A stretch of DNA of 64,000 nucleotides from Lentzea waywayandensis (GTDB taxonomy: Bacteria; Actinomycetota; Actinomycetes; Mycobacteriales; Pseudonocardiaceae), in assembly GCF_900115955.1 (NCBI RefSeq), contig NZ_FOYL01000002.1:682001-746000 (forward strand), given 5' to 3'. The notes below the pieces were generated by a model that saw only the letters and a program-made list of their open reading frames with translations, ran no database searches and was not told the origin of the DNA. A program made the position numbers and the translations under genes. Below, piece by piece: positions 1-14,000 of this stretch. Numbering within the stretch: position 1 is the stretch's first letter; each line of letters opens with the position of its first letter.

Positions 1-761
1 AAGAAGTTCAGCCCTGCCTCGCCGACCGCGGGCAGCCGGTCTTCGTCGCGCACCGTGGCGGCGAGCGTGGCGAGGCGCCAGGGTGTGACCCCGAGCAGCG
101 TCGGCAGGCCGTGCCAGCGTTTCGCGATGGCGTCGACGCGCAGGGCAGTGCCGAGGCGGATGCTCGCCGCGTCGACGCCGGAGTCCGGGCGGCGGGCCTT
201 CATCCGCTGGGAGACGATGCCGATCACGCCGCCGAGTTCGTTGTCCCACAACGGACCGCCGGAGAAGCCGCGTTCGAGCTCGAACCCGAGGACGCCGTCG
301 GCCTCCAGGGTGAACTCGGTGTCCGAGGAGTGGGTGATCTTGCCGTGCCACGGCTGTTCGCGATCGTCCCCTGTGGACGGATAGCCGCACACACCGACGG
401 AGTGGCCGTTGACCTGGAACGGATTCGCCAGTGGCGCCGGGCGGGCCCGGGAGGGCAGCACGCTGCCCTCCCGCAACCGCAGCACGGCGAAGTCGAGCCC
501 GGTGTCCACACCGGACCACCCGACGACGTCCGCGAGCAGTTCCTCGTTGTCCCGCTCGTCGTCGCCGTACTGGAACAGCACGTGCACCGGGCCGTCCGGC
601 TCGGGGTGCGCACCGTTTCCCTGCTGCTCCGCGACCACGTGCGCGCACGTCAGCACGTGGTCGGCCGTGACGAGCACGCCGGCCCCCTCCGCGCGCTGAC
701 CGGGGCCGCGGCGCACCTGCACCAGCCACGGCGGCCGGTCGGCCCACGGCCCCGCGCTCAC
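1..761 (-). CDS. Trypsin-like serine protease, 3' part beyond window
   Basis: The frame opens at GTG 761 and runs off the left edge (at least 254 residues). It shows a chymotrypsin-fold triad: His41 in TCAHVV, Asp90 in GLDFAVL and nucleophile Ser167 in GFSGGPL. There is no signal peptide, so it is probably cytoplasmic, unlike most secreted trypsins. After about residue 215 a further region starts (TLLGVTPWRLATLAATV) that may begin an effector or repeat domain outside the window. The GTG overlaps the stop of the upstream Trypco1-like gene by 4 bases (GTGA), so the two are translationally coupled. Known of the family: Trypco1 proteins co-occur with cytoplasmic trypsin-like proteases in actinobacterial NTP-dependent conflict systems. 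The substrate is unknown. Confidence 0.85.
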   Translation of the reverse strand, partial: MSAGPWADRPPWLVQVRRGPGQRAEGAGVLVTADHVLTCAHVVAEQQGNGAHPEPDGPVHVLFQYGDDERDNEELLADVVGWSGVDTGLDFAVLRLREGSVLPSRARPAPLANPFQVNGHSVGVCGYPSTGDDREQPWHGKITHSSDTEFTLEADGVLGFELERGFSGGPLWDNELGGVIGIVSQRMKARRPDSGVDAASIRLGTALRVDAIAKRWHGLPTLLGVTPWRLATLAATVRDEDRLPAVGEAGLNF

Positions 762-1072
762 GTGTCCTGCTTCCACCGCAGCTTGACGACGAAGTGGCCT
801 TCGGTGGCGGTCTTCGCGACGATCACGCCCGCCTGCACGTTGAGCTTCACGCCGAACTCGATCTCGTGCTCGGACGGTCCGAGGTTCTTCAGCGCCGTCA
901 TCAACGTGCTGAGCGCGGGCCGCACACCGGCGAGGACGTCCTCGATCCTGCGGCCGGCCTCCACGATGGCGTCGCTGCCCTTCGAGACCCGTTCCATGCC
1001 GAAGTCGTACTCATCCACCTCGAATACGACCGGGTCACCCTCGTTGTTTTCGAAGCGCACCAGCGCGGTCAC
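758..1072 (-). CDS. Trypsin-co-occurring domain (Trypco1 / CU044_2847-like) protein
   Basis: A 104-residue single-domain protein. It begins with a strand rich in Val/Phe (ALVRFENN), has a central helical stretch (residues about 30-60) and ends in strands (EFGVKLNVQAGVIVAKT, HFVVKLRW). This matches the small Trypco1 domain found beside trypsin-like proteases. I prefer GTG 1072 over GTG/ATG starts up to 1093, because a GAGGTG Shine-Dalgarno lies 6 bases upstream of it. It overlaps the downstream protease by 4 bases and is divergent from the actin-fold gene starting near 1180. The family is thought to act as a regulatory or adaptor module of the protease. That role is inference here. Confidence 0.75.
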   Translation of the reverse strand: MTALVRFENNEGDPVVFEVDEYDFGMERVSKGSDAIVEAGRRIEDVLAGVRPALSTLMTALKNLGPSEHEIEFGVKLNVQAGVIVAKTATEGHFVVKLRWKQDT

Positions 1073-1179
1073 GTGAACACCTCGTTCTCGCATTGTTCGG
1101 ATTCACCGTGGTGCGGACCGCACCGAGATGCTTCACTATCCTAGGACGGCGGCGACCGTAAATGAATGGAGCCGGGCGA
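1073..1179. promoter_or_regulatory. Divergent intergenic promoter region
   Basis: About 107 bases separate the minus-strand Trypco1/protease pair from the plus-strand actin-fold gene, so both promoters must lie here or overlap the gene starts. The only clear signals are the two Shine-Dalgarno sequences: GAGGTG on the minus strand before 1072, and GGAG at 1168-1171 before GTG 1180. I see no convincing -10/-35 pair or operator palindrome. Confidence 0.4.
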
Positions 1180-2250
1180 GTGAATTCGCAGGACGGGGAC
1201 GCGGGGTGGCTCGGCGTCGACTCCGGCTCCGTGCACACCCGGACCGCCCGGTCCGGCGCGGAGAGCCAGGTCGTCTGCGGTGACCGGAGTGCCGCGTTGC
1301 GGTCGGCGCTCGCCGGTCAGGCCGCGGCACGGCTCGTCGTCGCGGTGCCCGACGCGTGGTCCCGGTCAGGTCCCGCCGGGGCTCTGGAACGCGAGTCGCT
1401 GGTCCGGACCCTGGGCGGGTTTGCGCAGCACAGCGTGGTCGAGAGTTCGCTGGCGGTGGTCGCCTTCGCGGTGTCCTCCGGACTTGCCGACGGGTCCTGC
1501 GCAGTGCTCGACGTGGGTGCCGCCGGGGTCACGGCGGCGTGGTGCGAGGTGGAGGGCGCGACGGTTCGCCTGGTCAGGTCCACGACGACGCCGTGCGCCT
1601 CGTTCGACGCCGCGCTGGGTCACCGGCACGAGGACCTGCACGTTGCGCTCACCCAATTCCACGAACGCGGGAATCACGCGCTGAATGCGGCGATGCGCCT
1701 TTCTCGTTATCTGCGCACGCCCGCCTACCGGGTGGCCGGTTCGTGGCTCACCGCCGAATCGGTCATCAATGCTTTCGAACCTTTCGTTACAGCTATTCAG
1801 GCGACCGTTACCGGATTGTTGCCGCTGGCCGGCCCGATATTGCTGGCCGGTGGGTTCGCCCGGTTTCCGCTGACCGCTCAGGCCGTGCGGGACGCCGTTG
1901 GTTCTTCGCCGGTGGTGATGCCCGACGACGCCGCGGCCCGTGGTGCGCTGGCCCTGGCGCGCGGCGTGGTCGACGCCCCGCGCCCGTCTGGACGGCTGCT
2001 CGTCGACCGCGTCGTGAACGGCCTGCTGGAGGTCGGCGACCTCCCTCTGGACACCGAGCCGGTCGTCGAGGTGCCGGCCGGTCTGCACGCGACAGTCCGC
2101 CTCGGCACGTCCGTCGGCGTCACCCCCGGTCTGGCCGAGGGCCGCCATCGCGCGGCGTGGTGGCCGAACCGCGACGACCTCGGAGCCGTCGTTCTGCGCC
2201 CGCTGGACGGCGGACACCCGCTCATCTACCCGCTCGTGGAGGCGCCATGA
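1180..2250 (+). CDS. Degenerate Hsp70/actin-fold (ASKHA) protein
   Basis: A 356-residue protein with the three signatures of an actin/Hsp70-type nucleotide-binding fold in reduced form: phosphate-1-like GVDSG (residues 12-16), phosphate-2-like DVGAAGVTA (111-119) and adenosine motif LLAGGFARFP (221-230). It is shorter than DnaK and has no recognisable substrate-binding lid; the last 100 residues are beta-rich. GTG 1180 with GGAG 8 bases upstream is the better start; ATG 1162 would add six residues without a good ribosome site. Its stop overlaps the next gene's ATG (ATGA at 2247). The phosphate-1 loop lacks the DxGTT of active Hsp70s, so ATPase activity may be weak. A sensor role is inference. 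Confidence 0.7.
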   Translation: MNSQDGDAGWLGVDSGSVHTRTARSGAESQVVCGDRSAALRSALAGQAAARLVVAVPDAWSRSGPAGALERESLVRTLGGFAQHSVVESSLAVVAFAVSSGLADGSCAVLDVGAAGVTAAWCEVEGATVRLVRSTTTPCASFDAALGHRHEDLHVALTQFHERGNHALNAAMRLSRYLRTPAYRVAGSWLTAESVINAFEPFVTAIQATVTGLLPLAGPILLAGGFARFPLTAQAVRDAVGSSPVVMPDDAAARGALALARGVVDAPRPSGRLLVDRVVNGLLEVGDLPLDTEPVVEVPAGLHATVRLGTSVGVTPGLAEGRHRAAWWPNRDDLGAVVLRPLDGGHPLIYPLVEAP

Positions 2251-3122
2251 CCACGCATCCGGCAGTCGAGGCGTTGCGGTCCGCGCTGGCCCTGGCGACT
2301 CGGTGCGTCGAGGAGGTGTCCGCGTCCGGCGACGACGCCGCCGCGCTGGCCTGCGTGATCGAGCTGGACGAAGCCCTGGAAGAACTTCCGGCGTTGCATC
2401 GCGCGGTGACTGCACTAATCGGCCTGGCCTCACCCGGCCCCGAAGCCGGCGAACACGTCTCCGGCCGCGCGGCTCAGGCCTCCGACATCGCCGCGGGTCT
2501 CGGCTCCCTGCGGACGGCGCTCTCCACGGCCTCCCAGCACGAGGCGGAGCTCCAGGCCCTCCTCGCGGAACGCTCGTCGCTCCGCGACAAGATCACCGCA
2601 CTGCGCCGCCTCGAACGGCTCAGCACCGCCCTGGGCGAGCTGGAAGGCCAGCGCCAGCTGATCGACGACCGCCTCAAAGCCCTGCGCCAGCCCGTGGAAA
2701 AGGCCGAGATCGCCGTCCTGCGCGGCGCCGTCGACCTCGTACGCCTGACCGACGAACGCCGTGAGGCCCTCCTCCCCCGCGTGAGGGAGTCACTGGACCA
2801 GGCCGCCGCGGCCCAGTCCGCACTGGCCGACGTGGAGGCGGAACTCACCCGGCACCGCACCGACCGAGCCGAGGCCGCCCGCCGCCACGAGGAACTGACC
2901 ACCCTGCACCGCGAAGGCATCGCCGCCATGCGAGCCCAGGCGGCAGCCAACCTCCGCGTCGCCGAGGCACTGGGCGCGCCGGGCGGCGACGGCCTGAGCC
3001 AGGTCGCCGAGGTGGTGCGGGACGTGCAGACCCGGCTGGCCGAGGTGGACGGCGTCCTGGCCACGGCCCTCGACACGCGCCAGGCCGAAGGAGTGCGGGC
3101 CAAGGTCCACGCCAACCGCTGA
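2247..3122 (+). CDS. Coiled-coil protein of unknown function
   Basis: A 291-residue, almost entirely helical protein with long Leu/Ala/Glu/Arg heptads from about residue 65 to 230 (for example LRRLERLSTALGELEGQRQL and RRHEELTTLHREG). It has no membrane segment or catalytic motif. It is translationally coupled to the preceding actin-fold gene and probably forms a complex with it. I do not recognise a named family. The codons for its last 14 residues resemble the units of a 62-base tandem repeat that continues past the stop, suggesting the repeats arose by copying the gene's 3' end. It ends convergently about 290 bases from the larger Hsp70-like gene. Confidence 0.65.
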   Translation: MTTHPAVEALRSALALATRCVEEVSASGDDAAALACVIELDEALEELPALHRAVTALIGLASPGPEAGEHVSGRAAQASDIAAGLGSLRTALSTASQHEAELQALLAERSSLRDKITALRRLERLSTALGELEGQRQLIDDRLKALRQPVEKAEIAVLRGAVDLVRLTDERREALLPRVRESLDQAAAAQSALADVEAELTRHRTDRAEAARRHEELTTLHREGIAAMRAQAAANLRVAEALGAPGGDGLSQVAEVVRDVQTRLAEVDGVLATALDTRQAEGVRAKVHANR

Positions 3123-3241
3123 CCGAGAACCCACGGCGCACAGCAAGCCGAAGTCGCGCGGGCCAAGCCCACACCAACCGCTGACCGAGAACCCACGGCG
3201 CGCAGCAAGCCGAAGTCGCGCGGGCCAAGCCCACACCAACC
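3079..3241. repeat. 62-bp tandem repeat spanning the 3' end of the coiled-coil gene
   Basis: Two near-identical units begin at 3141 and 3203 (the second is cut at about 3241). The shared core reads CAGCAAGCCGAAG and continues through GGGCCAAGCCC. A third, diverged copy (3079-3140) lies inside the coding sequence and includes the stop codon. The period is 62 bases, with a one-base indel in the oldest copy. The duplicated text TGACCGAGAACCCACGGCG recurs at 3120 and 3182. The rest of the convergent gap (3242-3414) shows no gene, terminator or RNA that I can support. Confidence 0.8.
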
Positions 3242-3414
3242 ACAGGTCGACGAGCACGAAACGCCGGCCACCACCCGGCTCACGCCGATCCGCCGGCCGC
3301 GGCCCCACCGCCGCCGACACCCCAGCAGGCCGAGGAACGCTCAGGACCGAGGCCCCATGCCGGCCCAAGTCCCTACCCGGCCACACCGAACACCCTCCCC
3401 GGCAAAGCCCACCG

Positions 3415-5361
3415 TCACGAGATCAGCAGCTCCGCCTCCTTCGCCTGCTCCTCCAACTGCAACGCCAGCTGGTGCGCCACCTGCGCCACGATCGCGTCGG
3501 CGCCATCGGTCCTCAGCTTCTGGGCCAGGTTCGCCGCCAGCTCCCGCTCCTTCGCGGGCGCCTTCTTCCTCAGCGACGCCTCCCGGAACATCTCGCGGCC
3601 CGCCACGGGGATGTTCGCCGTCCGCACCAGTTCGTCGGCCTTCTCCGCGGCGCTGCCACCGGCGGTTATCACAGCCCCGAAGCCGATGACCCAGGCGATG
3701 GGGCCGCCCACCGCCATCGCCGAGAAGACGGCGGCCGCGATGACGCCCACGACGACGCTCGCCACGACGCCCGCGATGGCCGCGGCCTGGTCGGCGAACA
3801 CCACCGCCAGGCCCACCTGCGGGGACCAGGTCTGGTCGCGGACGCTGACGGGGGCCAGTTCCATGGCCTCGTCCCTGATGCGCCAGCGGCGGCAGATCGG
3901 TGCGGTCAGGTCGTTGAGGTCGGGGTGCAGGGCGTTCTGCCACTCGACGATCGCCGCCTGCACGCGCGGGTTGTCGGTCGCGGTCAGGGAGGCGCTCACC
4001 GCCTGGGCGATCTGGGCCTCCATCTCGGCGAGGGTCCTGATCTCGCCGCGCTTCCAGCGGCGGAACGCCGGGATGGCGTGCGCCTCGAACGCGCCTGTGG
4101 CCACGGCGTCACCGAGGCGGCTGGCCAGGGAGCCGAGGTGGTTGCGCACCACGGTCTCCACCATGCCTTCGCGCAGGAAGTCCGCGATGTCCGCGCGGAA
4201 ACCCTTGGCGCGCTCGGAGATGCGGCCGGCGAGGGCCAGGCCGCGGGCGATGGCCAGTTCGGGTTCGCTGCCCATCACCACGCGGTCGCCGAAGATCTCG
4301 CGGGCGTAGTCGAGCACGAACGTCATGCGCGAGGCCCCGCCGGTGAGCACGACGTGCGACGGCTTGCCCTTCACGGCCGCGGCGGCCAGGAGCAGGTCGT
4401 CGCGGAACGCCTCGCGCCAGCCGCGGCCTCCCAGCGCGGGCTGGGCGGTGTCGAGCACCTCTGCCATCGCCGTGCGGCCGATCCTGATGGGGTAGAAGGC
4501 GTTCTCGTCGCCACCGAGCGGTTCGTAGGTGTAGGTGCCGACGACCTGCTGGGCCGCCGGGTGGTCCTTGGTGAAGAAGTCCTCCTTGGCCATGCGGCAG
4601 GCGAACTGGAGGCGCTTGCGCTCGAAGTCGTTCCACTCGATGTGGCGCTCGACGTCCGCGCGGTACGGGCTCTCCCGCAGGAACCAGTTCATGATCGCGA
4701 TGTCGATCAGGCTCGCGCCGAGTGCCGAACCCGCGTCCTTCACCGGGTTCGCCCGCCGCCCGGTCACCACCGTGATGTCCAATGTGGACGAACCGAGGTC
4801 CGCGACCAGCACGGTGTCCGCCGCGGTCAGCTGGAGCCTGCCCTTGGCGCGCGCCGGACGGTCCCGCACCTCGCCGGAGTCACGCGCGAACAGCAGGGCC
4901 GCCCTGGACTCCGCGACCACCTCGACGTCGGCGAGACCGGCCTCCCGCAACACCTCCAGGTACCGGCCGCGGATCTCGGGCGACCACCCGGACGGCGTGC
5001 CGAACACCCACCGGGTCGGCCGGTCGTCGGGCAGCCTGCCCACGCGCTTGAGGTCCTCCCGGACGCCCTGCACGAACAACCGGGTCGGCCGTGCGACCTT
5101 CTCCTCGTCGAAGCTCGGGTCCTTGAACGCGACGTACAGCCGCGCGTCCTCCTGGTTGATCGCGAACACGCCGAGGATGATGCCCTTCGCCGGGTGCTCG
5201 GCGACCGCGGTCACCGAGACGTAGGTGCGACCGGCGGCGCTGGGCAGTTCCTGCTTGATCACCTCGTCCTCGCGCACGTCCGGCACGACCGCGAGCGCGG
5301 TGTCCGCGTGGCCGAGGTCGAAGCCGACGATCCGCAGGTCCTTCGAGCGGTGGGTGGTCAT
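3415..5361 (-). CDS. Hsp70-like ATPase with C-terminal hydrophobic segment
   Basis: A 648-residue Hsp70-family protein. The nucleotide-binding domain shows phosphate-1 GFDLGHADTA (13-22), phosphate-2 DLGSSTLDI (188-196) and adenosine motif VVLTGGASRM (337-346). After about residue 385 there is no DnaK-type substrate-binding domain. A helical region is followed by a hydrophobic Ala/Val/Gly-rich stretch (about 516-570) that could form a membrane hairpin, then a charged helical tail. The start is the ATG in TGATG at 5361, coupled to the upstream GrpE-like gene; longer in-frame extensions run through that gene. It is the last gene of the six-gene operon. The chaperone fold is firm. The hydrophobic segment suggests membrane recruitment, which is inference. 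Confidence 0.85.
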   Translation of the reverse strand: MTTHRSKDLRIVGFDLGHADTALAVVPDVREDEVIKQELPSAAGRTYVSVTAVAEHPAKGIILGVFAINQEDARLYVAFKDPSFDEEKVARPTRLFVQGVREDLKRVGRLPDDRPTRWVFGTPSGWSPEIRGRYLEVLREAGLADVEVVAESRAALLFARDSGEVRDRPARAKGRLQLTAADTVLVADLGSSTLDITVVTGRRANPVKDAGSALGASLIDIAIMNWFLRESPYRADVERHIEWNDFERKRLQFACRMAKEDFFTKDHPAAQQVVGTYTYEPLGGDENAFYPIRIGRTAMAEVLDTAQPALGGRGWREAFRDDLLLAAAAVKGKPSHVVLTGGASRMTFVLDYAREIFGDRVVMGSEPELAIARGLALAGRISERAKGFRADIADFLREGMVETVVRNHLGSLASRLGDAVATGAFEAHAIPAFRRWKRGEIRTLAEMEAQIAQAVSASLTATDNPRVQAAIVEWQNALHPDLNDLTAPICRRWRIRDEAMELAPVSVRDQTWSPQVGLAVVFADQAAAIAGVVASVVVGVIAAAVFSAMAVGGPIAWVIGFGAVITAGGSAAEKADELVRTANIPVAGREMFREASLRKKAPAKERELAANLAQKLRTDGADAIVAQVAHQLALQLEEQAKEAELLIS

Positions 5362-6149
5362 CACCGTCCCCCTTCGCTGATCCGCGGCAGTTCGCCGCCT
5401 GGTGCGGTGTCCCCGGCGGGTCGCCGGGTCGCCTCGCCCGCCGCGACGATCTGCTGTCGCCACCGGAGCGCGGGCCGGACGGTCCGGATCTCGCCGTCCT
5501 CGAAACCCGGTGACGGGTCGAGGACGAAGTACTGGCTCACGTTCTCGTCGTAGGCGACGATCTCGATCTCGTGCTTGTCCCGCAGCTGGTCGACGAGCTG
5601 GTCCAGCCGGTTCAGCACCTTCGGCCCGTGCCCGGTCTGGCGGGCGCTGAGCAGGTCGTGCAGCAACCGGACGAGCTCGCCGTCCGCACCCCACGGCTGA
5701 ACGAACGCCACGGGCGGACGGGGACGGGCGGCTTCCAGAGTCGCGTCCAGCGCTTCACACATGTGCAGCACGTGCTTGGCGAATCCCTGCGACCGCACGA
5801 TCCGCGTCGGTTGCGGAGGGCGTGGTTCGGGTCGCGGCGGGCCCGCGAGCCAGTCCAGCCCGGTCGACCTGCGCGGCGCCCTCTCGGCCGGCTGGGGCAT
5901 CTCGATCGCGAGCAGCATGCCCATCGCGGACTGCTTGAGCAGCCGCATCCCCTCTTCGAGCTGGTCGGCCCGCAACGACTCCTCGCTGTCCGCGGCGATG
6001 TCGTGGGTCCACCGGTCGAGTTCGCGCTGCATCTCGTTGATCCAGTCGCGCATCACCGTCTTCGTGTCCTCGACCGTCAGCCGTTCGTAGTGCACGACGA
6101 AGCGCCGCTGAGCGGCCCTGAACATCTCCGCGAACGTCGGTTCGTTCAC
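5361..6149 (-). CDS. Possible GrpE-like nucleotide exchange factor
   Basis: A 262-residue protein lying between the beta-propeller and Hsp70-like genes (overlaps of 4 and 1 bases). Residues 1-85 are helical and charged, 90-118 are Pro-rich linker, and 120-190 are helical. Residues about 190-230 (EIVAYDENVSQYFVLDPSP, then a Gly/Glu turn and VRPAL) resemble the small beta head of GrpE, where a YDP motif precedes two strands and an RPA(L/R) ending. Position immediately upstream of an Hsp70 supports a nucleotide-exchange role. Similarity is short and judged by eye, so an unrelated adaptor remains possible. Confidence 0.5.
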   Translation of the reverse strand: MNEPTFAEMFRAAQRRFVVHYERLTVEDTKTVMRDWINEMQRELDRWTHDIAADSEESLRADQLEEGMRLLKQSAMGMLLAIEMPQPAERAPRRSTGLDWLAGPPRPEPRPPQPTRIVRSQGFAKHVLHMCEALDATLEAARPRPPVAFVQPWGADGELVRLLHDLLSARQTGHGPKVLNRLDQLVDQLRDKHEIEIVAYDENVSQYFVLDPSPGFEDGEIRTVRPALRWRQQIVAAGEATRRPAGDTAPGGELPRISEGGR

Positions 6150-7666
6150 CCGAGCCCACCTTCCTCAACGGCTGGTATCGACCACACCCGCACGACCCCG
6201 TCCTGCCGTCCCGCGCTGACCACGTGACCGTCGCCGGTGAGCGCGAGGCCGCGGACCGCACCTCGATGGCACCCGATCAGGACCCTCTTCCGGTTCCGCG
6301 CGGGCCACCAGACGACCTCACCCGCGGCGTCCGCGGTCACCAGGTCCCCGCCCGCCACGACGGCGACCGCGGTCACCGCGGACCGGCCGGCCGATGCCGA
6401 CCAGCCCCGCTCGGAACGCAGGTCGTGCACGTGGGCGGAGCCGTCGGCGCAGCCCACCGCGAGGAATCTCGCGCGGTCGTCCAGATCGAGCGCGACCACA
6501 CCCGCGGACGCGGGCACCTCGTGGATCAACTCGCCCGCCCACGTGTCGTACACCCGCACCACGCGGTCACCTCCCGCGGCGGCGGCGACCGCACCGTCCG
6601 ATGTGGACGCGAGCACCGCGCCTCCCTGGCCACCGGCCAGAATCGGCCGCATGGGTTCCGCGCCGGCGCGGTCGACCGTGCTGCGGTTGATCACCCCGTC
6701 GTCGCCGAGGCTCACCGCGATGCCGTCACCCGCGCGAACGCCGTTGACGCGTCCCTGATGCGCGGGCAGCAGCAGGATCGACCCGTGCTCGTCCCGCAAC
6801 CGGACGTCGCCGTCCCAGCCACCCGCGAGCCACACCGTCCGGTCCCGTGCGCCGTCGACCGCGCTCACCGCGCCGCCGAGCAACGGCACGACCCCGGCGG
6901 AAGCACCGTCGAACGTCCAGCCCCGCACCGAACCGTCCCGCGCGCCACCCACGACCGTGCCGTCCCGCACGGTCCACGCGGTGATCTCGGCGTCCGAGCT
7001 CCACATGACATCACCGGCGCCACCGTCACGCCGGACGACGACCTCCGCGCCGGTGCCGGCGACGAGCCGCTCGGGCACCTCCCAGCCGGGCACCCGCAGC
7101 AGAACCCCGTGTGCGGCGGGGTTCCGCGCGAAGCGACCGGTCCCGCCCGCGAGCCGGAACGCCTGTGCGGCCTCGTCCTCCGGCAGGTCGGGGACCAGCA
7201 TCGGCCACGTGTACCGCACGAGCTCGGCACGTTCGCGGAGCACGCCGTCCGGCTGCACGTCGAAGGTGTGCGCCGCCACGGCGTCCGCACGCACGTCCAG
7301 GACGCTCACCACGGTCAGCTTCCGCCGTTCCAGCACCTCGCGCGCCACCGATCGGGGCGACGCGGGACCTCGCCCCGCCGAAGAGTCCAGCTGGACGCGC
7401 GCCCACGCGCGGTCGTCCTCATCCGGCGGACCACCGCGCACGAACGCCTCGGTGCGGTCGAGCATCGCCCGGTCTCCCGCCGCGGCACGGGTGGCGGTGA
7501 CCAGGTCGAACCGCAGCCGCGCCCGCTCCAGTCCTCGTTCGAACGTGGCCGCGGCGCCGGGTCCGGGGCTGATCCGCCATCCGGTGCGCAGCAACCAGCC
7601 GCACCGGCCGCAGACGTCGCCGGTGATCGAGGTGGCGCAGACGGGGCACACCGCGACGTCAGTCAT
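6146..7666 (-). CDS. Zinc-ribbon plus WD40-like beta-propeller protein
   Basis: A 506-residue protein. The N-terminus carries a zinc ribbon of two CxxC knuckles (Cys7/Cys10 and Cys19/Cys22). A helical domain (about 30-120) follows, then from about residue 190 a series of WD40-type blades ending in motifs such as GGWDGDVRLRD, GGDRVVRVYD, GCADGSAHVHD and GRQDGVVRVWS. I count at least six to seven blades, enough for a closed propeller. The propeller probably binds protein partners. The gene overlaps the AAA+ gene by 8 bases upstream and the GrpE-like gene by 4 bases downstream. No enzymatic motif is visible. A target-recognition or scaffold role within the chaperone operon is inferred. Confidence 0.8.
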   Translation of the reverse strand: MTDVAVCPVCATSITGDVCGRCGWLLRTGWRISPGPGAAATFERGLERARLRFDLVTATRAAAGDRAMLDRTEAFVRGGPPDEDDRAWARVQLDSSAGRGPASPRSVAREVLERRKLTVVSVLDVRADAVAAHTFDVQPDGVLRERAELVRYTWPMLVPDLPEDEAAQAFRLAGGTGRFARNPAAHGVLLRVPGWEVPERLVAGTGAEVVVRRDGGAGDVMWSSDAEITAWTVRDGTVVGGARDGSVRGWTFDGASAGVVPLLGGAVSAVDGARDRTVWLAGGWDGDVRLRDEHGSILLLPAHQGRVNGVRAGDGIAVSLGDDGVINRSTVDRAGAEPMRPILAGGQGGAVLASTSDGAVAAAAGGDRVVRVYDTWAGELIHEVPASAGVVALDLDDRARFLAVGCADGSAHVHDLRSERGWSASAGRSAVTAVAVVAGGDLVTADAAGEVVWWPARNRKRVLIGCHRGAVRGLALTGDGHVVSAGRQDGVVRVWSIPAVEEGGLG

Positions 7667-10160
7667 CGGGCACGTCCCCCGGTTGGAGCAGCCGCAGTTC
7701 CTCGTCGGTGGCGTCCACGGGCACGCGCTTGGCGAGCGACGCCGTCATCCGTCCCAGCAACTTCCGCGCCGTCCGGGCGTTGCCGAACGCCCGTCCCTGC
7801 CTGCGGCGGTCCAGGCTCAGCCACCGGGCGGCCCGGACGGCCGCGGCCTTGGTGAGCTCGTACCCCTTGTCCTCGGCCAGCCTGCGCAGCACCTCGACGA
7901 GCTCCTGGTCGGTGTAGGCGCGGAAGTCGATCTGGAGGTCGAACCTCGACGCGAGACCGGGGTTGGCGTCGAGGAACCGTCGCATCTCCTCCGGGTAGCC
8001 CGCCGCGACCAGCACGAACTGGCCCCGCCGGTTCTCCATCTCCTCCAGCAGCACGGCAAGCGCCTCCTGCCCGTACTGGTCCAGCCTGCTCACGGCGGCC
8101 AGCTCGTAGGCCTCGTCGACGAACAGCACCCCGCCGAGCGCCTGCTGGATCGCTTCACGGGTGCGCGGCCCGGTCTGTCCCATCCACTCGGCGACGAGAT
8201 CGCTGCGCGACACCGCGTGCACGTGACCGCGAGGCACCAGACCGAGCACCATCAGCAGCTTGCCGACCAGCCGGGCGACGGTCGTCTTGCCGGTGCCGGG
8301 AGGTCCGACGAACAGCATGTGCGGCGCCACCACCGGCTCCGCGGTCATGCCGCGGGCACGGCGTTGTTTGTTGAGCCGCAACAGGTCCACCAGCTCGCGG
8401 AACATCCGTTTGGCGGACTCCAGCCCGACCATGCGGTCGAGCTCGGCGAGGAGGTTCTCCGGCGTCGGCAGGTCCCGGTCGGCCAGCATCCCGCGCTGGG
8501 CCTCCGGCAGGTCCTCGAGGTCGAGCGGCTCGCCCGCGTTGCCCAGCGTCCGCACGCTCCACCGCCGGGTGATCTGCTCGGCGAGGTTCTCCATGTCGCC
8601 CGCGTTGCCGAACCCCTCGGCGCGGGTGGCGTGCGTTCGTTCGGTGATCTCGGCGAGCCGGTCGGCCATCTCGTCGGACCAGCACATCCCGGCGCGCTTC
8701 AGCGCGGCCAGCAGGATCGCGTGCAGCTCGTCCGGTTCGAAGTCGGGGAAGTCGATCCGGTTGGGGAACCGGCGCGGCAGACCGTCGTTGGAGCGCAGGA
8801 ACTCCGCCATCTTGGCGCCGTACCCGGCGACGACGACGGCGATCTGGCCGCGTTCCCGGTCCATCAGCTGGACCAGGGTCGTGATGGCCTCGCGGCCGAA
8901 CGACGGACCCGGCCCGCCCGCGTCGTCGCTCAGGCCGTAGGCCTCGTCGATCAGCAGGATGCCGCCGCGGGCCTCCTCGAACGCCCGTTCGACCGCTCGG
9001 CGGGTGTGTCCCTGGTAGGCGCCGACGAGATCCGACGGCCGTGCCTCGTGCACGTGCCCGATCGGCAGCGCCCCGATGTCGCGGTAGAGCTCGCCGACGA
9101 GCCTCGCCACGGTGGACTTGCCGGTGCCGGGATTGCCGGTGAACACGACGTTGAGCAGGTGCGTGTCACCGTTGTCGCGCCCCGCCTGCCAGCCGATGTA
9201 GTGGCGGATCTCCTGGAGGTACTCCTTCACCGGCCGCAACCCGACCATGGTCCGCAGGCGTTCCTCGGCGCTGCGGCCGTCCGTGAGCGCGACCGGTACC
9301 CACCTGCGTTCGCGCAGCACGTCCGGCGTCAGCCGCACGCCGTCACGAACGAGCGCGTCGAGCCTGTCCCGCCACGACCGCAACGACTCCCGGCTCGCGA
9401 CCATCGCGCGGACGACGATGTCGAGACGCGGCCAGTCGACTTCCAGGCCCCTGGTCAGGCGCACGGTCTGCACGAGCCGTTCCAGCTCGTCCGCCTGCGG
9501 TGCCGCGAGGATCAGCAGGCCGGGGCGATGGCCCTGGCCGTGTTCCTGCAACGCGGTGACCAGTCCGGTGAGCGCCGGATAGATGCGCAGCCCGTGCACG
9601 AAGTCGCGCACCTCGTCCAGCGTGCGCTGGCGGAACACCAGCAGGCACAGGTTGCCCGCGACCCTGGGCGCCTCCAGCCACGTCGTCAGCACGTCGCCGA
9701 ACACGCCGCCCGCCGCGTTGTGCGTCAGCCACTGCTCCGCCTCGAGGAAGACCACCGCGGTGCGGGCGCGGCCGTCGTTCATGGCCGCGGCGAGCAGGTC
9801 GATGCCGCCCTGCTCGGTGAGCCCGGTCCTGACCGGCTCCGCCCTTCTCCGCAGCCCCATCGGGTCCATGCCCTGGAGCGGTCCGGGGGGCCGCACGGCA
9901 CCGGCGGGCCGCGGCGGCCGCAGCAACCCCGCCGACTCCTCGTCGAGGCAGTAGACGACCTCCTCGGAGCGGCGGCTGAACAGGATCCGTTCGTAGCCCT
10001 GGTCGTGCAGGTATCTCCACAGCACGTCCTGGAGCGGCGCGGCCACCATGTCCTCGCCCAGGAAGAGGTCGCTGACGTACGACGCCAGGCCGTGCACGAT
10101 CAGGAGCTGGATGCCCTCGGGTGTGGCGAGTCCTCCCCACCGCGCGGGCAACTCCGTCAC
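7659..10160 (-). CDS. Tandem AAA+ ATPase, CbbX/SpoVK type
   Basis: An 833-residue protein with two complete AAA+ modules of the CbbX/SpoVK (VWA-like, IDEAY) class. Module 1 has Walker A GNPGTGKST (342-350), Walker B LLIDEAYGL (402-410), sensor-1 VVVAGY (442-447) and an arginine finger region RRFPNRIDF (463-471). Module 2 has GPPGTGKTT (619-627), LFVDEAYEL (679-687) and SRFDLQIDF (738-746). Residues 1-300 hold a third, P-loop-less region with a Walker B-like VVFLEAEQWL (136-145), possibly a dead AAA domain. GTG 10160 overlaps the previous stop (GTGA). Known of the class: ring-forming remodellers such as Rubisco activase CbbX. Here it may remodel complexes of the operon's chaperones. Confidence 0.9.
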   Translation of the reverse strand: MTELPARWGGLATPEGIQLLIVHGLASYVSDLFLGEDMVAAPLQDVLWRYLHDQGYERILFSRRSEEVVYCLDEESAGLLRPPRPAGAVRPPGPLQGMDPMGLRRRAEPVRTGLTEQGGIDLLAAAMNDGRARTAVVFLEAEQWLTHNAAGGVFGDVLTTWLEAPRVAGNLCLLVFRQRTLDEVRDFVHGLRIYPALTGLVTALQEHGQGHRPGLLILAAPQADELERLVQTVRLTRGLEVDWPRLDIVVRAMVASRESLRSWRDRLDALVRDGVRLTPDVLRERRWVPVALTDGRSAEERLRTMVGLRPVKEYLQEIRHYIGWQAGRDNGDTHLLNVVFTGNPGTGKSTVARLVGELYRDIGALPIGHVHEARPSDLVGAYQGHTRRAVERAFEEARGGILLIDEAYGLSDDAGGPGPSFGREAITTLVQLMDRERGQIAVVVAGYGAKMAEFLRSNDGLPRRFPNRIDFPDFEPDELHAILLAALKRAGMCWSDEMADRLAEITERTHATRAEGFGNAGDMENLAEQITRRWSVRTLGNAGEPLDLEDLPEAQRGMLADRDLPTPENLLAELDRMVGLESAKRMFRELVDLLRLNKQRRARGMTAEPVVAPHMLFVGPPGTGKTTVARLVGKLLMVLGLVPRGHVHAVSRSDLVAEWMGQTGPRTREAIQQALGGVLFVDEAYELAAVSRLDQYGQEALAVLLEEMENRRGQFVLVAAGYPEEMRRFLDANPGLASRFDLQIDFRAYTDQELVEVLRRLAEDKGYELTKAAAVRAARWLSLDRRRQGRAFGNARTARKLLGRMTASLAKRVPVDATDEELRLLQPGDVPDD

Positions 10161-11515
10161 GCCGGGCTCCTGCCCGGTGTCCCCTCGCCGCGGATCTCGG
10201 GCGGCAGGTCGCTCCGGTTGGGCTCGCCGCCCTCCTGGAGGTCCCCGACCGGCAGTTCGTACTGGCGCAGGTGCCGCTGGATCGCGACCGCCCGCGTGCC
10301 GCGTTGCGCGGCCGATCCGGTGTCGGTGTCGAACGACCGCAGCCGCAGCTGGGCGTCGGTCCCGTCGGTACCGGCGGGCGCGACCTCGACCACGATCTCG
10401 TTGCCGCTCAGGTGTCCCAGCCGGACGAAGATCGCCTCCCGGTCGTCGCCGCCCGCGAGCACCCACTGCTCGGCCTGGTAGGCGAACCCGTCCTGCAACG
10501 CGTCGGCCACCAGCTCGGCGATGTTCGACCGCACCTGGGCCGCCGTCACCCTGCGGCGGGCCGTGTCGACGACCTCGCCGAGCCTCGCGGCGAACGCCGG
10601 GGCCTGCTCCCGCACCACGGCTCTGAGCTCGTCGATGCTGATCAGCTCGTTGCCGTCGACCACACCGATGGCTTGGGCGACGTCGCGCCGCAGGTCACTC
10701 ACCGCCCCGTCCGACCAGTGGTCGACGTCGAACTGGGCCTTCGTGATCTCCCCGTCGCGCTCGTCGACGATCAACGACGTCCTGTTCAGCTTCACCTGCT
10801 CGTCGATGAAGAGCAGCGAGTGCCGCGCCGCGACGCGCAACGCCGCCCACTCCGACTCCTTCAGCGTCACCTCGGTCTGCAGTTCGGCCAGCGAGTCGTA
10901 GACCGTCTGCGCTGTCACGACGGCCGCCTCCGGCCTGCCCTGGTCGAGGTGGTGGTGCGCGTCGCCCAGCTTGCGGCCCAGCCCGCTGAGAACTCCTGGA
11001 GCAAACCGTTCGTGCGGCAGCTTGTCGTCGATCAGGTCGTGTTTGACCTTGGCGTCGTTGAGCCAGGACTGCGCCGCTTCGGCCGCCCGCCGCCGATCGC
11101 CCTGCACCTCGTCGACACCCGCTTCGAGCCTGCGGATGTCCTCGCGGTGCTCACGCCGCTGCTCCTCCAGCTCACCGCGGATCGCCTGCTCGGTGCCGGC
11201 GAGCGCGTCGAACACCTCGGTGCGCAGCTCGTCCCCCGACGCCAGCAGCCGTTGCTCCAGCTGCCCGACGTGCTCGTCGAGGCGCCGCGCGGTCTCGCGT
11301 TCGAACACGGCGTTGCGCGCGCTCAGCTGGTTCAGCGTGCCTTCGAGCCCGGCCTGCCGGCGCCGGACGTCTCCGAGGTCGGCGTCGAGCTGCTGCCGCA
11401 TCCCTTCCCGGAGGTGCTCGACGGTGTGCGCGTCGAGCGACTGGACGAGCGGTTCCACGATCTGCCTGCGGTACCAGTTCTGCAGCGCGATCTGCAGCGT
11501 CTTCTCCCCGCTCAT
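10157..11515 (-). CDS. Large coiled-coil protein of the chaperone operon
   Basis: A 452-residue mainly helical protein. Residues about 25-150 form a strong coiled coil (LNQLSARNAVFERETARRLD and following heptads). The middle (150-300) is helical with LLFIDEQVKLN, and a beta-rich module (about 355-420) contains AIFVRLGHLSGNEIVVEV. A proline-rich tail follows. There is no membrane segment and no known catalytic motif. It sits between the radical SAM and AAA+ genes with 4-base overlaps on both sides, so it is translated in step with them. The arrangement suggests an oligomeric scaffold or substrate of the AAA+ protein. I do not recognise a family. Confidence 0.7.
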   Translation of the reverse strand: MSGEKTLQIALQNWYRRQIVEPLVQSLDAHTVEHLREGMRQQLDADLGDVRRRQAGLEGTLNQLSARNAVFERETARRLDEHVGQLEQRLLASGDELRTEVFDALAGTEQAIRGELEEQRREHREDIRRLEAGVDEVQGDRRRAAEAAQSWLNDAKVKHDLIDDKLPHERFAPGVLSGLGRKLGDAHHHLDQGRPEAAVVTAQTVYDSLAELQTEVTLKESEWAALRVAARHSLLFIDEQVKLNRTSLIVDERDGEITKAQFDVDHWSDGAVSDLRRDVAQAIGVVDGNELISIDELRAVVREQAPAFAARLGEVVDTARRRVTAAQVRSNIAELVADALQDGFAYQAEQWVLAGGDDREAIFVRLGHLSGNEIVVEVAPAGTDGTDAQLRLRSFDTDTGSAAQRGTRAVAIQRHLRQYELPVGDLQEGGEPNRSDLPPEIRGEGTPGRSPA

Positions 11516-12147
11516 CGCCCGTTCTCCCGTTCGATTCGCCGTGAGATCTCGCCAACCGTCGCGGCCATCCCGTGCGGTGGCACGCCGACGAGCATCAGCT
11601 CCACGAACTCGTCGTCGCCGCCGACCCGCACCTCGGCCGTGCGCGGGCCGTGTTCGAAGTCGAACCCCTCCGCCAGCCGGTCGGTGAGGTGGCGCACCTG
11701 CTGGTTGGTGCTGCCGCGCAGGCCGCGTCCGTCGTTGCGCACGGCCAGGTAGGGCCCGTCGACCAGAACGTCCACTTCGGACAGCAGGTCGGCGACGCCG
11801 GCGGAGGGCGGCCGCTCTTTCAAGCGCCGCAACGTGAATCCGGTGAAGCAGATCAACGACACGTCCCGCGCGCGGCGAACCTCCCGCGCCACCTCGGCGA
11901 GTCCGGCGGCCTGCATCATGGGCTCACCACCGGAGAACGTCAACCCGTCGACCGCGGGATCGGCGATCAGCTCGGCCGCGAGGTCGCCGGCGGGAACCAG
12001 GTTTGCCACGCGGTCTGGAATCCATTCGGGCGCAAGGCACTCCGGGCAGCGCAGGGGGCAGCCCTGCACCCACACCGCGGACCTCCAGCCAGGGCCCAGG
12101 TTCCTCGTGCCCACGCAGATCGCTGCCACGTTGACGTTCGCTGCCAT
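11512..12147 (-). CDS. Stand-alone radical SAM activase-like protein (NrdG/PflA type)
   Basis: A 211-residue protein with the radical SAM CX3CX2C cluster motif (Cys30, Cys34, Cys37 in CPLRCPEC) and the SAM-binding FSGGEP (71-76). Its length and organisation match small glycyl-radical-enzyme activases such as NrdG. There is no auxiliary-cluster (SPASM) domain. ATG 12147 is preceded by GGAGAAGG. It is the first gene of the six-gene operon, and no glycyl radical enzyme or anaerobic ribonucleotide reductase is encoded anywhere in the window. It therefore probably modifies or radical-activates a different target, perhaps an operon partner. The family is firm and the target unknown. Confidence 0.85.
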   Translation of the reverse strand: MAANVNVAAICVGTRNLGPGWRSAVWVQGCPLRCPECLAPEWIPDRVANLVPAGDLAAELIADPAVDGLTFSGGEPMMQAAGLAEVAREVRRARDVSLICFTGFTLRRLKERPPSAGVADLLSEVDVLVDGPYLAVRNDGRGLRGSTNQQVRHLTDRLAEGFDFEHGPRTAEVRVGGDDEFVELMLVGVPPHGMAATVGEISRRIERENGR

Positions 12148-12226
12148 GCGGACCTTCTCCGGTCGCGGCCAGGTACAACCCTGTGTCGTCCGGACCCGAA
12201 CCGCCGTTACCCGGAATGCCGCGAAA

Positions 12227-12261
12227 AGAGGGTTCTCGCGGTCCACCTGCGAGAACCCTCT
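12227..12261 (-). terminator. Intrinsic terminator after the Tat-KstD operon
   Basis: Perfect 13-base inverted repeat AGAGGGTTCTCGC (12227-12239) / GCGAGAACCCTCT (12249-12261) with a 9-base loop. Read on the minus strand the stem is followed by a short T run (CTCTTTTCGC). It lies 33 bases after the kstD-like stop at 12294 and separates the steroid genes from the chaperone operon, whose promoter must then lie between 12148 and 12226. Confidence 0.8.
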
Positions 12262-12293
12262 GGAGCAGTGCGGTGGTGCCAGTGGCGTGGCCC

Positions 12294-14000
12294 CTAGATG
12301 TCGTTGGCCGCGATGTACCCGAACGTCATGGCCGGCCCGATGGTCGACCCCGCGCCGGCGTAGCTCCGCCCCATCACGGCGGAGCTGACGTTGCCCGCCG
12401 CGTACAGACCTGGGATGACCGAACCGTCGGGCCGCAGGACGCGAGCGCGGGCGTCGGTGACCATGCCTCCCTTGGTGCCGAGGTCGCCCGGCACGATCTT
12501 GAACGCGTAGTACGGGGGCGCCCACAGCGGCGCGAGACACGAGTTCGGGAAGACCGCGGGGTCCGTGTAGTAGTGGTCGTAGGCGCTGTCGCCGCGCTTG
12601 AAGTCGGTGTCCCTGCCCGTGAACGCCTGGTTGTTGAACCGGGTGACGGTGGACTTCAGCGACGCGCCGGGAACCCCGATCGCGCTCGCCAGGCCGTCCA
12701 GGGACCAGTTCTTCACCACGGCGCCCGACTGGTACCAGCCGTCGGGCAGCGGCAGGGTCGGGGCCACGTCGGCGAACAGGTACCTGTTGCGGTAGTTCTG
12801 GTCCACGACGAGCCAGGCAGGAATGCACGGGTCCGCGGGGTTCTTGTCGTACATGACGTGCACGACGTCGCTGTAGGGCGCGGCCTCGTTGACGAACCGC
12901 TTGCCGGCGGCGTTGATCATCAGGCCGCCGGGGAGCGTGCGTTCGGCGAGGCAGAAGTACGGGGTGCCGGGCACCGGGATCGCCGGGCCCCACCAGGCGT
13001 CGTCCATCAGGTCGAGGGCCGCGCCGATCCGCTGGCCCGCGCGGTGGCCGTCGCCGGTGTTCTCCTTCGCGCCGACCGTCCACTGCGTACCGATGGGCTG
13101 GCGCTGGTGCTGGGCGCGCATGGCCGCGTTGTGCTCGAAGCCGCCGGAGCCCATGATCACGCCCCGCCGTGCCCGCACGAGTCCGCGCGAGGTCAGCACT
13201 CCCTTGACCGCGCCGTTCACCACGTGCAGCTCTTCGAGGCCGGTGTTGAGCCACACCGGGACGTTCGCCTGCATCAGGCCCGCCCGCAGACCGCCGGCGA
13301 GGGACTGGCCCATGGTCAGCGGTTTCTGGCCCGCGAGTGCGGCGGCCGTTCCCCGTGCGAGAGCGGCCGCGGCCGTCGCGGCGCCCTTCGCGTTGACGAG
13401 GGCGAGGGCGAGCCACTTGTAGTCGGCGCCGTAGATGACCATGCCCGCCGGGGTGGCGAGGTAGGGCGCGTTCAGGTTCGCGAGCTCGGCGCCGAGGATC
13501 CGGCCGTCCATCATCTCGGGCTCGATCGAGCGGCCCTTCGCGATGCCGCCGGGGTATTCGGGGTAGTAGTCGCTGTAGCCGTCCATGTGCCGGAAGCGCA
13601 GCGGGCTGTTGCGCATGACGAACGAGATCATCTGCGGCCCGTGCGTCAGGTAGGCCTGCTGCCGCACCAGAGGGATGTCACCGACGACCGCCGCCAGATA
13701 CTGCGCGGCCTTCGCGGGTGTGTCCGGGATGCCGGCCGCGAGGATGACCTCGTTGTTGGGGATCCAGATGCCGGCACCGGACCGCGCGGCCGAACCGCCG
13801 TAGGTCGGCGCCTTCTCCACGACCACGCAGCTCAGTCCGCGCTTGGCCGCGGTGAGCGCGGCGGTCATGCCGGCCGCGCCGGCGCCGACCACGACGACGT
13901 CGAACTCGCCGAGGTCGGCGGAGGCCGACGACGGCTTGACGAGTCCCGAGGCCAGCGCGAGACCGGCTCCGGCGAGCACCTGACGGCGGTTTAGGTTCAT
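12294..14000 (-). CDS. 3-ketosteroid delta1-dehydrogenase paralogue with Tat signal
   Basis: A 568-residue flavoprotein of the KstD/fumarate reductase family, probably introducing the C1-C2 double bond into 3-ketosteroids. Residues 1-29 form a twin-arginine signal (NRRQVLAGAG, hydrophobic core, then SSASAD). The FAD Rossmann motif VVGAGAAGMTAAL follows at about 37-50, and the C-terminal FAD contact is YAAGNVSSAVMG...YAGAGSTIGPAMTFG. It is clearly homologous to the cytoplasmic KstD encoded at 49725-51296 but exported. ATG 14000 overlaps the PPOX gene stop (ATGA). It is third in the operon ligase-PPOX-kstD under a KstR box at 15988. Activity on an acidic or secreted steroid outside the membrane is possible but unproven. 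Confidence 0.85.
   Translation of the reverse strand: MNLNRRQVLAGAGLALASGLVKPSSASADLGEFDVVVVGAGAAGMTAALTAAKRGLSCVVVEKAPTYGGSAARSGAGIWIPNNEVILAAGIPDTPAKAAQYLAAVVGDIPLVRQQAYLTHGPQMISFVMRNSPLRFRHMDGYSDYYPEYPGGIAKGRSIEPEMMDGRILGAELANLNAPYLATPAGMVIYGADYKWLALALVNAKGAATAAAALARGTAAALAGQKPLTMGQSLAGGLRAGLMQANVPVWLNTGLEELHVVNGAVKGVLTSRGLVRARRGVIMGSGGFEHNAAMRAQHQRQPIGTQWTVGAKENTGDGHRAGQRIGAALDLMDDAWWGPAIPVPGTPYFCLAERTLPGGLMINAAGKRFVNEAAPYSDVVHVMYDKNPADPCIPAWLVVDQNYRNRYLFADVAPTLPLPDGWYQSGAVVKNWSLDGLASAIGVPGASLKSTVTRFNNQAFTGRDTDFKRGDSAYDHYYTDPAVFPNSCLAPLWAPPYYAFKIVPGDLGTKGGMVTDARARVLRPDGSVIPGLYAAGNVSSAVMGRSYAGAGSTIGPAMTFGYIAANDI

Follow-up and report, generated by a model that had tools for sequence, protein, structure and literature searches.

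A mobile ten-gene island in Lentzea waywayandensis and its apparent kinship with bacterial conflict systems

What could bring two Hsp70-like proteins, a tandem AAA+ ATPase, a radical SAM enzyme and a trypsin-domain protein together in ten adjacent genes? This question is raised by a 64,000-nucleotide stretch of Lentzea waywayandensis (hereafter, the window; C24:682001-746000 of a 10.15-Mb genome), for which an original prediction had proposed that the ten genes work as one surveillance or proteostasis machine. All ten genes that it listed are present within the first 12.1 kb of the window, as confirmed by the list of open reading frames and by profile searches. In our view, the island is probably, with some reserve, a mobile, single-unit conflict system of the immune or abortive-infection type, built as a chaperone-gated protease switch. 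The basis for this is an inserted block with a conserved gene set, a core that recurs across phyla, and a trypsin/P-loop/TPR protein with its usual companion Trypco1. The island thus appears to be a relative, so far undescribed, of known bacterial conflict systems, in particular of the GTPase-centric ones in Kaur et al. 2020.

The block entered the genome as one insertion. Its breaks lie at about -3645 and, depending on the congener, at 12290-12300 (coordinates follow window numbering, and negative positions lie to the left of the window start). Taken to 12299, the block measures 15,945 bp and has a G+C content of 0.719, against 0.692 and 0.690 alongside. All six congeners examined have empty sites, where the flanks lie together and the block itself has no match. 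The spacing between the flanks is 34 bp in G014, 32 bp in G020 and 724-830 bp in G009, G003, G001 and G008, the left flank of the last being itself interrupted by about 4 kb. The right-flank gene is matched at 80% identity or more in 24/24 genomes of the genus (in G012 as a fragment only), and the island's coiled-coil gene ccI is patchy, with 3/24 genus genomes and 4/394 class genomes carrying it, the host included in both counts. In the four congeners with wider spacing (L149, L150, L151 and L153), 0.7-0.8 kb of other DNA occupies the island site, reading as a small gene in G009, so genes may be gained and lost repeatedly at this position. At the block's two ends (-3648 to -3640 and 12289-12297) there is a 9-bp inverted match, CTAGGGGCC / GGCCCCTAG, which we judge to be near chance expectation in such G+C-rich DNA.

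The same set of genes is also found elsewhere. Among 80 fetched loci, homologues of Hsp70E and of its neighbor, protein F, are present in three, from Hamadaea tsunoensis, Streptomyces albireticuli and S. eurocidicus. All ten genes occur in these three loci in the window's order and orientation, including, beyond the core described below, the Hsp70-like gene actC (family f4), ccD, Trypco1 and the trypsin-TPR gene. The two Streptomyces appear closely related and, consequently, perhaps three separate lineages are represented when the window is counted. The co-occurrence check suggested with the original prediction gives ten syntenic genes in three other genomes and a core in several phyla. A chance neighborhood is rejected because of the empty sites and the conservation of the ten genes in four genomes. 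Synteny and the single insertion uphold the predicted machine as one genetic unit; that its products also act as one machine is something that we infer.

The first sign of a wider core came from a tblastn search against plasmids. In a Calothrix PCC 6303 plasmid, radical SAM, ccI and AAA+ genes (40, 29 and 33% identity) and a zinc-ribbon protein follow each other in this order, and Hsp70-like and TPR genes adjoin. The breadth of this core was concealed by searches with F (1/60 genomes, the host's own) and Hsp70E (1/296 genomes at 1e-20, again the host's own; another search returned nothing), and was revealed by the radical SAM alignment, which was used alone in a genome scan to obtain the best 80 of 411 relatives. 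The fetched stretches were cut at 10 kb from the radical SAM gene, or sooner where the contig ended, and genes in them were called by a simple custom caller that shortened or missed some; in L032, L067 and L075, the radical SAM gene fell outside its own family for this reason. ccI is found in 45 of the 80 loci, AAA+ proteins of this family in 48, both in 41, and a contiguous ordered triad in 33. If loci with ccI and/or this AAA+ near the radical SAM gene are counted (L090 and L093, with other AAA types, being excluded), the core is carried by 50 of the 80, from seven phyla or classes as labeled by hand: Actinomycetota (25), Cyanobacteria (9), Chloroflexota (8), Bacteroidota (3), Desulfobacterota (2), Planctomycetota (2) and Gammaproteobacteria (1). 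The pairwise distances of radical SAM, ccI and AAA proteins correlate with each other (r 0.76-0.79, with 0/2000 shuffles as high), a value that still includes the common descent of the hosts.

Several neighbors accompany the core, with counts that are lower bounds because the stretches are cut at their ends. Zinc-ribbon/propeller families (which include kinases in L076) are present in 36 of the 50 core loci and the motif CxxC...CxxC itself in 33; GTPase families f5, f12 or f54 in 28, Hsp70-like proteins in 21, a DUF4407 family in 17, the ccD type in 16, the GAP1-N2 family in 4 and Hsp70E in 3. No description of the radical SAM, ccI and tandem AAA+ core was found in the open-licence literature, a search that left subscription journals and supplementary tables aside; some of the loci may be contained in the neighborhood tables of Kaur et al.

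What would such a core act on? Continued past the window edge, the trypsin gene encodes 1455 residues, with Trypsin_2 at 31-187 (1.3e-15 in the Pfam search of window proteins), a Walker A motif near residue 290 and then TPR repeats; the catalytic motifs and the Walker A are both retained in the window protein. The cytoplasmic trypsin that had been predicted is thus upheld as a domain but not as a free-standing enzyme, since it makes up the first ~200 residues, or head, of a trypsin/P-loop/TPR protein. As judged from sequence, this order of domains is the architecture of NLR- or apoptosis-type switches, and the P-loop region may be called STAND-like on the same architectural grounds. A similarly built Nonomuraea protein (L033) has an nSTAND5 match at 5.3e-4. 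The Trypco1 gene lies directly beside the trypsin-domain gene, so that the Trypco1/trypsin pair is complete. STAND/NLR-type anti-phage proteins, for instance the Avs1 protease and bNACHT25, are alike in their protease head, P-loop and repeat tail, and the Avs1b model matches the protease part of the window protein alone, at 25.9 bits against a cut-off of 1500. bNACHT25, a bacterial NLR-related protein, is reported to require the chaperone DnaJ for sensing (PMC12169576).

Ties to conflict systems are also observed around the core in other genomes. A GAP1-N2-type gene directly precedes it in L072, L073, L075 and L078 (three Bacteroidota and one Brocadia), as confirmed by Pfam at 1e-10 in L072, the only one of the four that was scanned; the AAA+ protein of L072, with 2173 residues, continues into NB-ARC and TPR. 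In two congeners, the core is located at another genomic position, where it encloses the gene for an EAD1 protein and adjoins that for a P-loop/TPR protein of 1474-1490 residues (one of each was scanned with Pfam). Other neighbors are a WD40-TIR protein (L076), CHAT (L037) and a trypsin-TPR protein (L033). The presumed link to conflict is strengthened by these STAND/TPR, CHAT, TIR, EAD1 and GAP1-N2 neighbors in part of the loci. Relatives of trypsin, STAND, NB-ARC, CHAT, TIR or EAD1 domains are present in 13/50 core loci versus 2/30 other radical SAM loci, a comparison that leans toward the core loci because the queries were mostly drawn from them.

A GTPase recurs at a particular place. Family f5 is found in 21/50 core loci downstream of the zinc-ribbon propeller, a position that F and Hsp70E occupy in the four known carriers. 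This actinomycete GTPase is related to the f12 GTPases beside GAP1-N2 (99.3%, 9e-21) and to the cyanobacterial f54 GTPases (97.2%, 3e-11), and DO-GTPase2 is matched, weakly, by 8/10 of its members (best 1.1e-4). Profile comparison gave no support to f5 and f6 as homologues of F and Hsp70E, with which they share their position; f6 was also considered as GAP1, which was not shown (GAP1-M in 1/10 members at 0.084). From this shared position of non-homologous pairs, we infer that an Hsp70 switch has taken the place of a GTPase switch in the Hsp70E/F subtype.

The closest known systems help to delimit the island. In passages of Kaur et al. 2020 (PMC7159879), thresholds set by chaperones and GTPases are proposed for conflict systems, Trypco1 is defined, and variants with Hsp70/GrpE are reported, as is a single radical SAM gene in FtsH systems; a GAP1-N2 theme with HSP70, GrpE and a second HSP70 lacking the peptide-binding domain is described as well. 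The island resembles these GTPase-centric (DO-GTPase/GAP1) systems, as portrayed in those passages, in that it has two Hsp70-type proteins, one of them short, and in being mobile, patchy and found in filamentous bacteria; moreover, a DO-GTPase-like GTPase occurs with relatives of the core, as does GAP1-N2 in four loci. By contrast, no GTPase family was recognised by Pfam among the window proteins, GAP1-N2 is missing from the host genome, GrpE has no support, and the core does not appear in the same passages, the main text of the paper mentioning neither CbbX nor SpoVK. The MoxR-vWA ternary systems (VMAP and other) also have Trypco1 beside a trypsin-domain protein, an AAA+ motor and, in the FtsH type, a radical SAM gene (PMC7159879, in part). 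Nevertheless, the island AAA+ is of the CbbX/SpoVK class (bpMoxR 0.025, 14.1 bits versus 27), and Pfam detects no vWA among the ten island genes, while some relatives have one. Finally, the CbbX, SpoVK and EccA proteins belong to the same AAA+ class, likely remodelling motors, but the island protein differs by its two AAA domains and a distinct N-terminal region, and no Rubisco, sporulation or type VII secretion gene is found among the ten.

In the conflict system that we propose, ccI and the CbbX-type AAA+ protein would together act as a remodelling motor that requires the radical SAM enzyme, perhaps via the N-terminal SGxK motif of ccI. The zinc-ribbon propeller and the two Hsp70-like proteins, helped by ccD and F, would sense or hold client proteins, with Hsp70E possibly at the membrane; in many relatives, a DO-GTPase-like switch would stand at the position of Hsp70E and F. 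When clients change on infection or stress, the motor would permit assembly of the P-loop/TPR protein, whose trypsin domain would then cut its targets, Trypco1 acting as its adaptor or brake. As an outcome, growth might be stopped or the cell killed. The island defines a cross-phylum core (radical SAM, MSGxK coiled coil and tandem CbbX-type AAA+) that recurs beside several known or predicted conflict modules. It may also provide an example of a motor of the chaperone class that gates a protease whose build recalls an NLR or apoptosis protein.

Several points weigh against this proposal. The P-loop protein of the window has no STAND match in Pfam, despite the Walker A at 290 and the TPR tail, and the PADLOC matches are weak and partial. 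The host genome has 0 matches to GAP1-N2 (PF20013), and the putative link from the AAA+ to the trypsin protein is one of gene neighborhood. Furthermore, 37/50 core loci lack any of the searched effector domains within the fetched stretch. This last point, together with the many chaperone-class parts, favors a mobile proteostasis or stress-recovery module without a defence role, where the AAA+, Hsp70-like and radical SAM parts would repair host complexes, by analogy with CbbX, which remodels Rubisco, and the trypsin protein would clear failures. Such a module fits poorly with a patchy, inserted island whose relatives have swapped STAND/TPR, CHAT, TIR and EAD1 partners, and we regard it as rather unlikely.

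The island might also consist of two systems side by side, namely, a core chaperone operon and a separately captured conflict pair of Trypco1 and trypsin-TPR. In agreement with this, there are separate transcription units, and the trypsin-TPR gene is missing from the stretch in most core loci. Yet trypsin-TPR and Trypco1 occur at the same place in all three other Hsp70E/F loci, trypsin-TPR lies beside the core also in L019 and L022, and all genes entered the host in one insertion, which makes such a pairing distinctly improbable. That the radical SAM gene is an ordinary NrdG for anaerobic ribonucleotide reductase in an incidental neighborhood can be dismissed: NrdG is its best named relative (2.2e-21), but the score of 76.4 bits falls below the cut-off of 126.1, no NrdD was found in the host genome (6/14 control genomes have one), and the gene keeps a conserved synteny with the core.

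Assuming a conflict system with a motor of this kind, how might the radical SAM enzyme, of the single-cluster type, control it? The ccI proteins are 19-36% identical to that of the window (26 to 27 homologues in the alignments), and 44 of 47 carry [M/V]SGxK within their first 30 residues, in all cases at an ATG or GTG codon; the three exceptions start with MSRGK or MSAKR or are cut by the stretch edge. Three of residues 2-5 reach a conservation of 0.70-0.81 in unaligned counts, while other families of at least seven members have at most two of residues 2-8 above 0.65. An MSGxK start is found in only 4/1088 other called genes, all of which either lie next to a radical SAM gene or are one themselves: the first has a ccI-like start and is truncated at the contig end, two encode f22 proteins, and the last is a radical SAM gene with a possibly miscalled start. 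Thus, the N-terminus of ccI may be the target of the enzyme, which would make ccI a concrete candidate substrate for a radical SAM family without an assigned function. By profile comparison, f22 is a distant relative of ccI (97.9%, 5.2e-13) and f21 is related to f22 (99.5%, 3.2e-23). Most genes of both families are flanked by a weaker radical SAM relative on one side and a ClpX-type AAA+ on the other, and MSG starts are seen in 5/6 f21 and 3/6 f22 proteins, so the tag tends to accompany the radical SAM enzyme also where the AAA+ is a different one.

Related activases act on a glycine. A tentative and, in this specific form, unlikely extension is that the radical SAM enzyme modifies the SGxK of ccI, perhaps at the glycine, and that only modified ccI lets the tandem AAA+ hold or release the protease switch, that is, a radical-SAM-licensed immune switch. 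If true, the same tag beside ClpX-type AAA+ could point to a general principle of control by radical SAM, coiled coil and AAA+. Against the MSGxK reading as a whole, 3/6 f22 proteins lack MSG, an f22-like Leisingera protein (3.1e-9) begins otherwise, and so do the Polaromonas and Photobacterium proteins that occupy the corresponding position and had no match to any of the models. In addition, the structure model of ccI places residues 3-9 in a strand (mean predicted local distance difference test score, pLDDT, 81), and conservation of SGxK may consequently be structural. A fold search with ccI gave no match at E 0.001.

The individual proteins of the island, collected in Table 1, largely agree with the original prediction. 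The tandem CbbX-class AAA+ is seen as two AAA stretches (1.3e-31; SpoVK 426 bits, EccA 348, CbbX 347), and the zinc-ribbon propeller, the Trypco1-like protein and both Hsp70/actin-fold proteins have matches of their own. Among the six minus-strand genes, from the radical SAM gene at 12147 down to Hsp70E at 3415, overlaps of 4, 4, 8, 4 and 1 bases were measured, within the 1-8 originally noted, but gene overlaps do not demonstrate the fixed ratio of products that had been deduced from them. The overlap is 4 bases for actC/ccD and 19 for Trypco1 and the trypsin gene.

Table 1. Features of the island in window coordinates.
Feature	Position	Strand	Basis or remark
Trypsin, P-loop (STAND-like), TPR protein, 1455 residues, N-terminal part	1..776	-	Trypsin_2 31-187, TPR_21; motifs TCAHV, LDFAV, GFSGGP; Walker A GEMKAGKS; gene extends 3.6 kb left of window (L147:910-5277)
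Trypco1 protein, 111 residues	758..1093	-	PF19493 4.7e-24
actC, short Hsp70/actin-fold protein, 362 residues	1162..2250	+	hhalign to Hsp70-like f4 and alignment; nucleotide motifs appear degenerate
ccD, coiled-coil protein, 291 residues	2247..3122	+	hhalign to cyanobacterial f9, 95.6%, 1.1e-8
Hsp70E, Hsp70 nucleotide-binding domain, canonical substrate domain not detected	3415..5361	-	PF00012 3.8e-7 at 181-383
F, helical protein, 262 residues	5361..6149	-	No family match; no GrpE match
WDG, N-terminal zinc ribbon and WD40 propeller, 506 residues	6146..7666	-	WD40 2e-9; CPVC...CGRCGW
AAA+ protein, 833 residues, own ~300-residue N-terminal region and two CbbX/SpoVK-class AAA domains	7659..10160	-	Profiles; Walker A and B in both
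ccI, coiled-coil protein, 452 residues, starts MSGEK	10157..11515	-	Alignments, structure model
NrdG-like radical SAM enzyme, 211 residues, CxxxCxxC	11512..12147	-	Fer4_12 6.3e-28
Inserted block, window part	1..12299	.	Empty sites in six congeners

The Hsp70-like proteins are divergent. actC has no Pfam match at 0.1; its family matches the Hsp70-like family f4 with 99.5% probability (1.4e-22) in profile comparison, and in the alignment it appears degenerate next to its cyanobacterial and Chloroflexota relatives. In Hsp70E, the phosphate and adenosine motifs can still be recognised, and hydropathy shows a single strongly hydrophobic stretch near residue 528, from which membrane contact is a guess. 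The GrpE-like protein of the original prediction, F, finds no such support: it has no Pfam GrpE match at 0.1 and no PDB profile match at E 10, and PF01025 detects two genes elsewhere in the host genome, F not being among them. The structure model of F (pLDDT 54) is too poor for a fold search to count either way. Against PDB, the C-terminus of Hsp70E, the N-terminal region of the AAA+ protein and ccI gave coiled-coil matches, weak matches or nothing. A Calothrix NIES-22 plasmid (L008:10821-12743) encodes an Hsp70E homologue, 27% identical over its length, with the core genes absent from the fetched stretch.

Some further arrangements were observed. In Chloroflexota and cyanobacterial loci (L024:15196-20460 and L050:1-3411), several zinc-ribbon proteins stand in tandem; their N-termini are alike and their tails vary (coiled coil, WD40), which would suit a ribbon that serves as a docking tag. 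Actinomycete operons (L083-L086, L088 and L089; about 7.4-13.7 kb in L083) encode a kinase-like protein and a ClpX-type AAA+ together with a weaker radical SAM relative and a coiled-coil protein of family f21 (MSGSPKY). Plasmids of Polaromonas, Leisingera and Photobacterium (L010:2552-8612, L011:3120-8609 and L014:2933-8573) carry a five-gene set that parallels the core with another AAA+: an AAA-domain protein, a PIN protein, a hypothetical protein, a ClpX-type AAA and a radical SAM enzyme; for the AAA of this set, PADLOC gives partial matches to PDC-M37B and DolB. Within the window, ARAGORN calls a tRNA with a four-base anticodon at 15757-15853, inside an acyl-CoA synthetase-like gene, which is probably spurious. 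Finally, 11 contigs of a viral collection (L096-L106) encode distant relatives of the radical SAM enzyme, with 28-39% identity.

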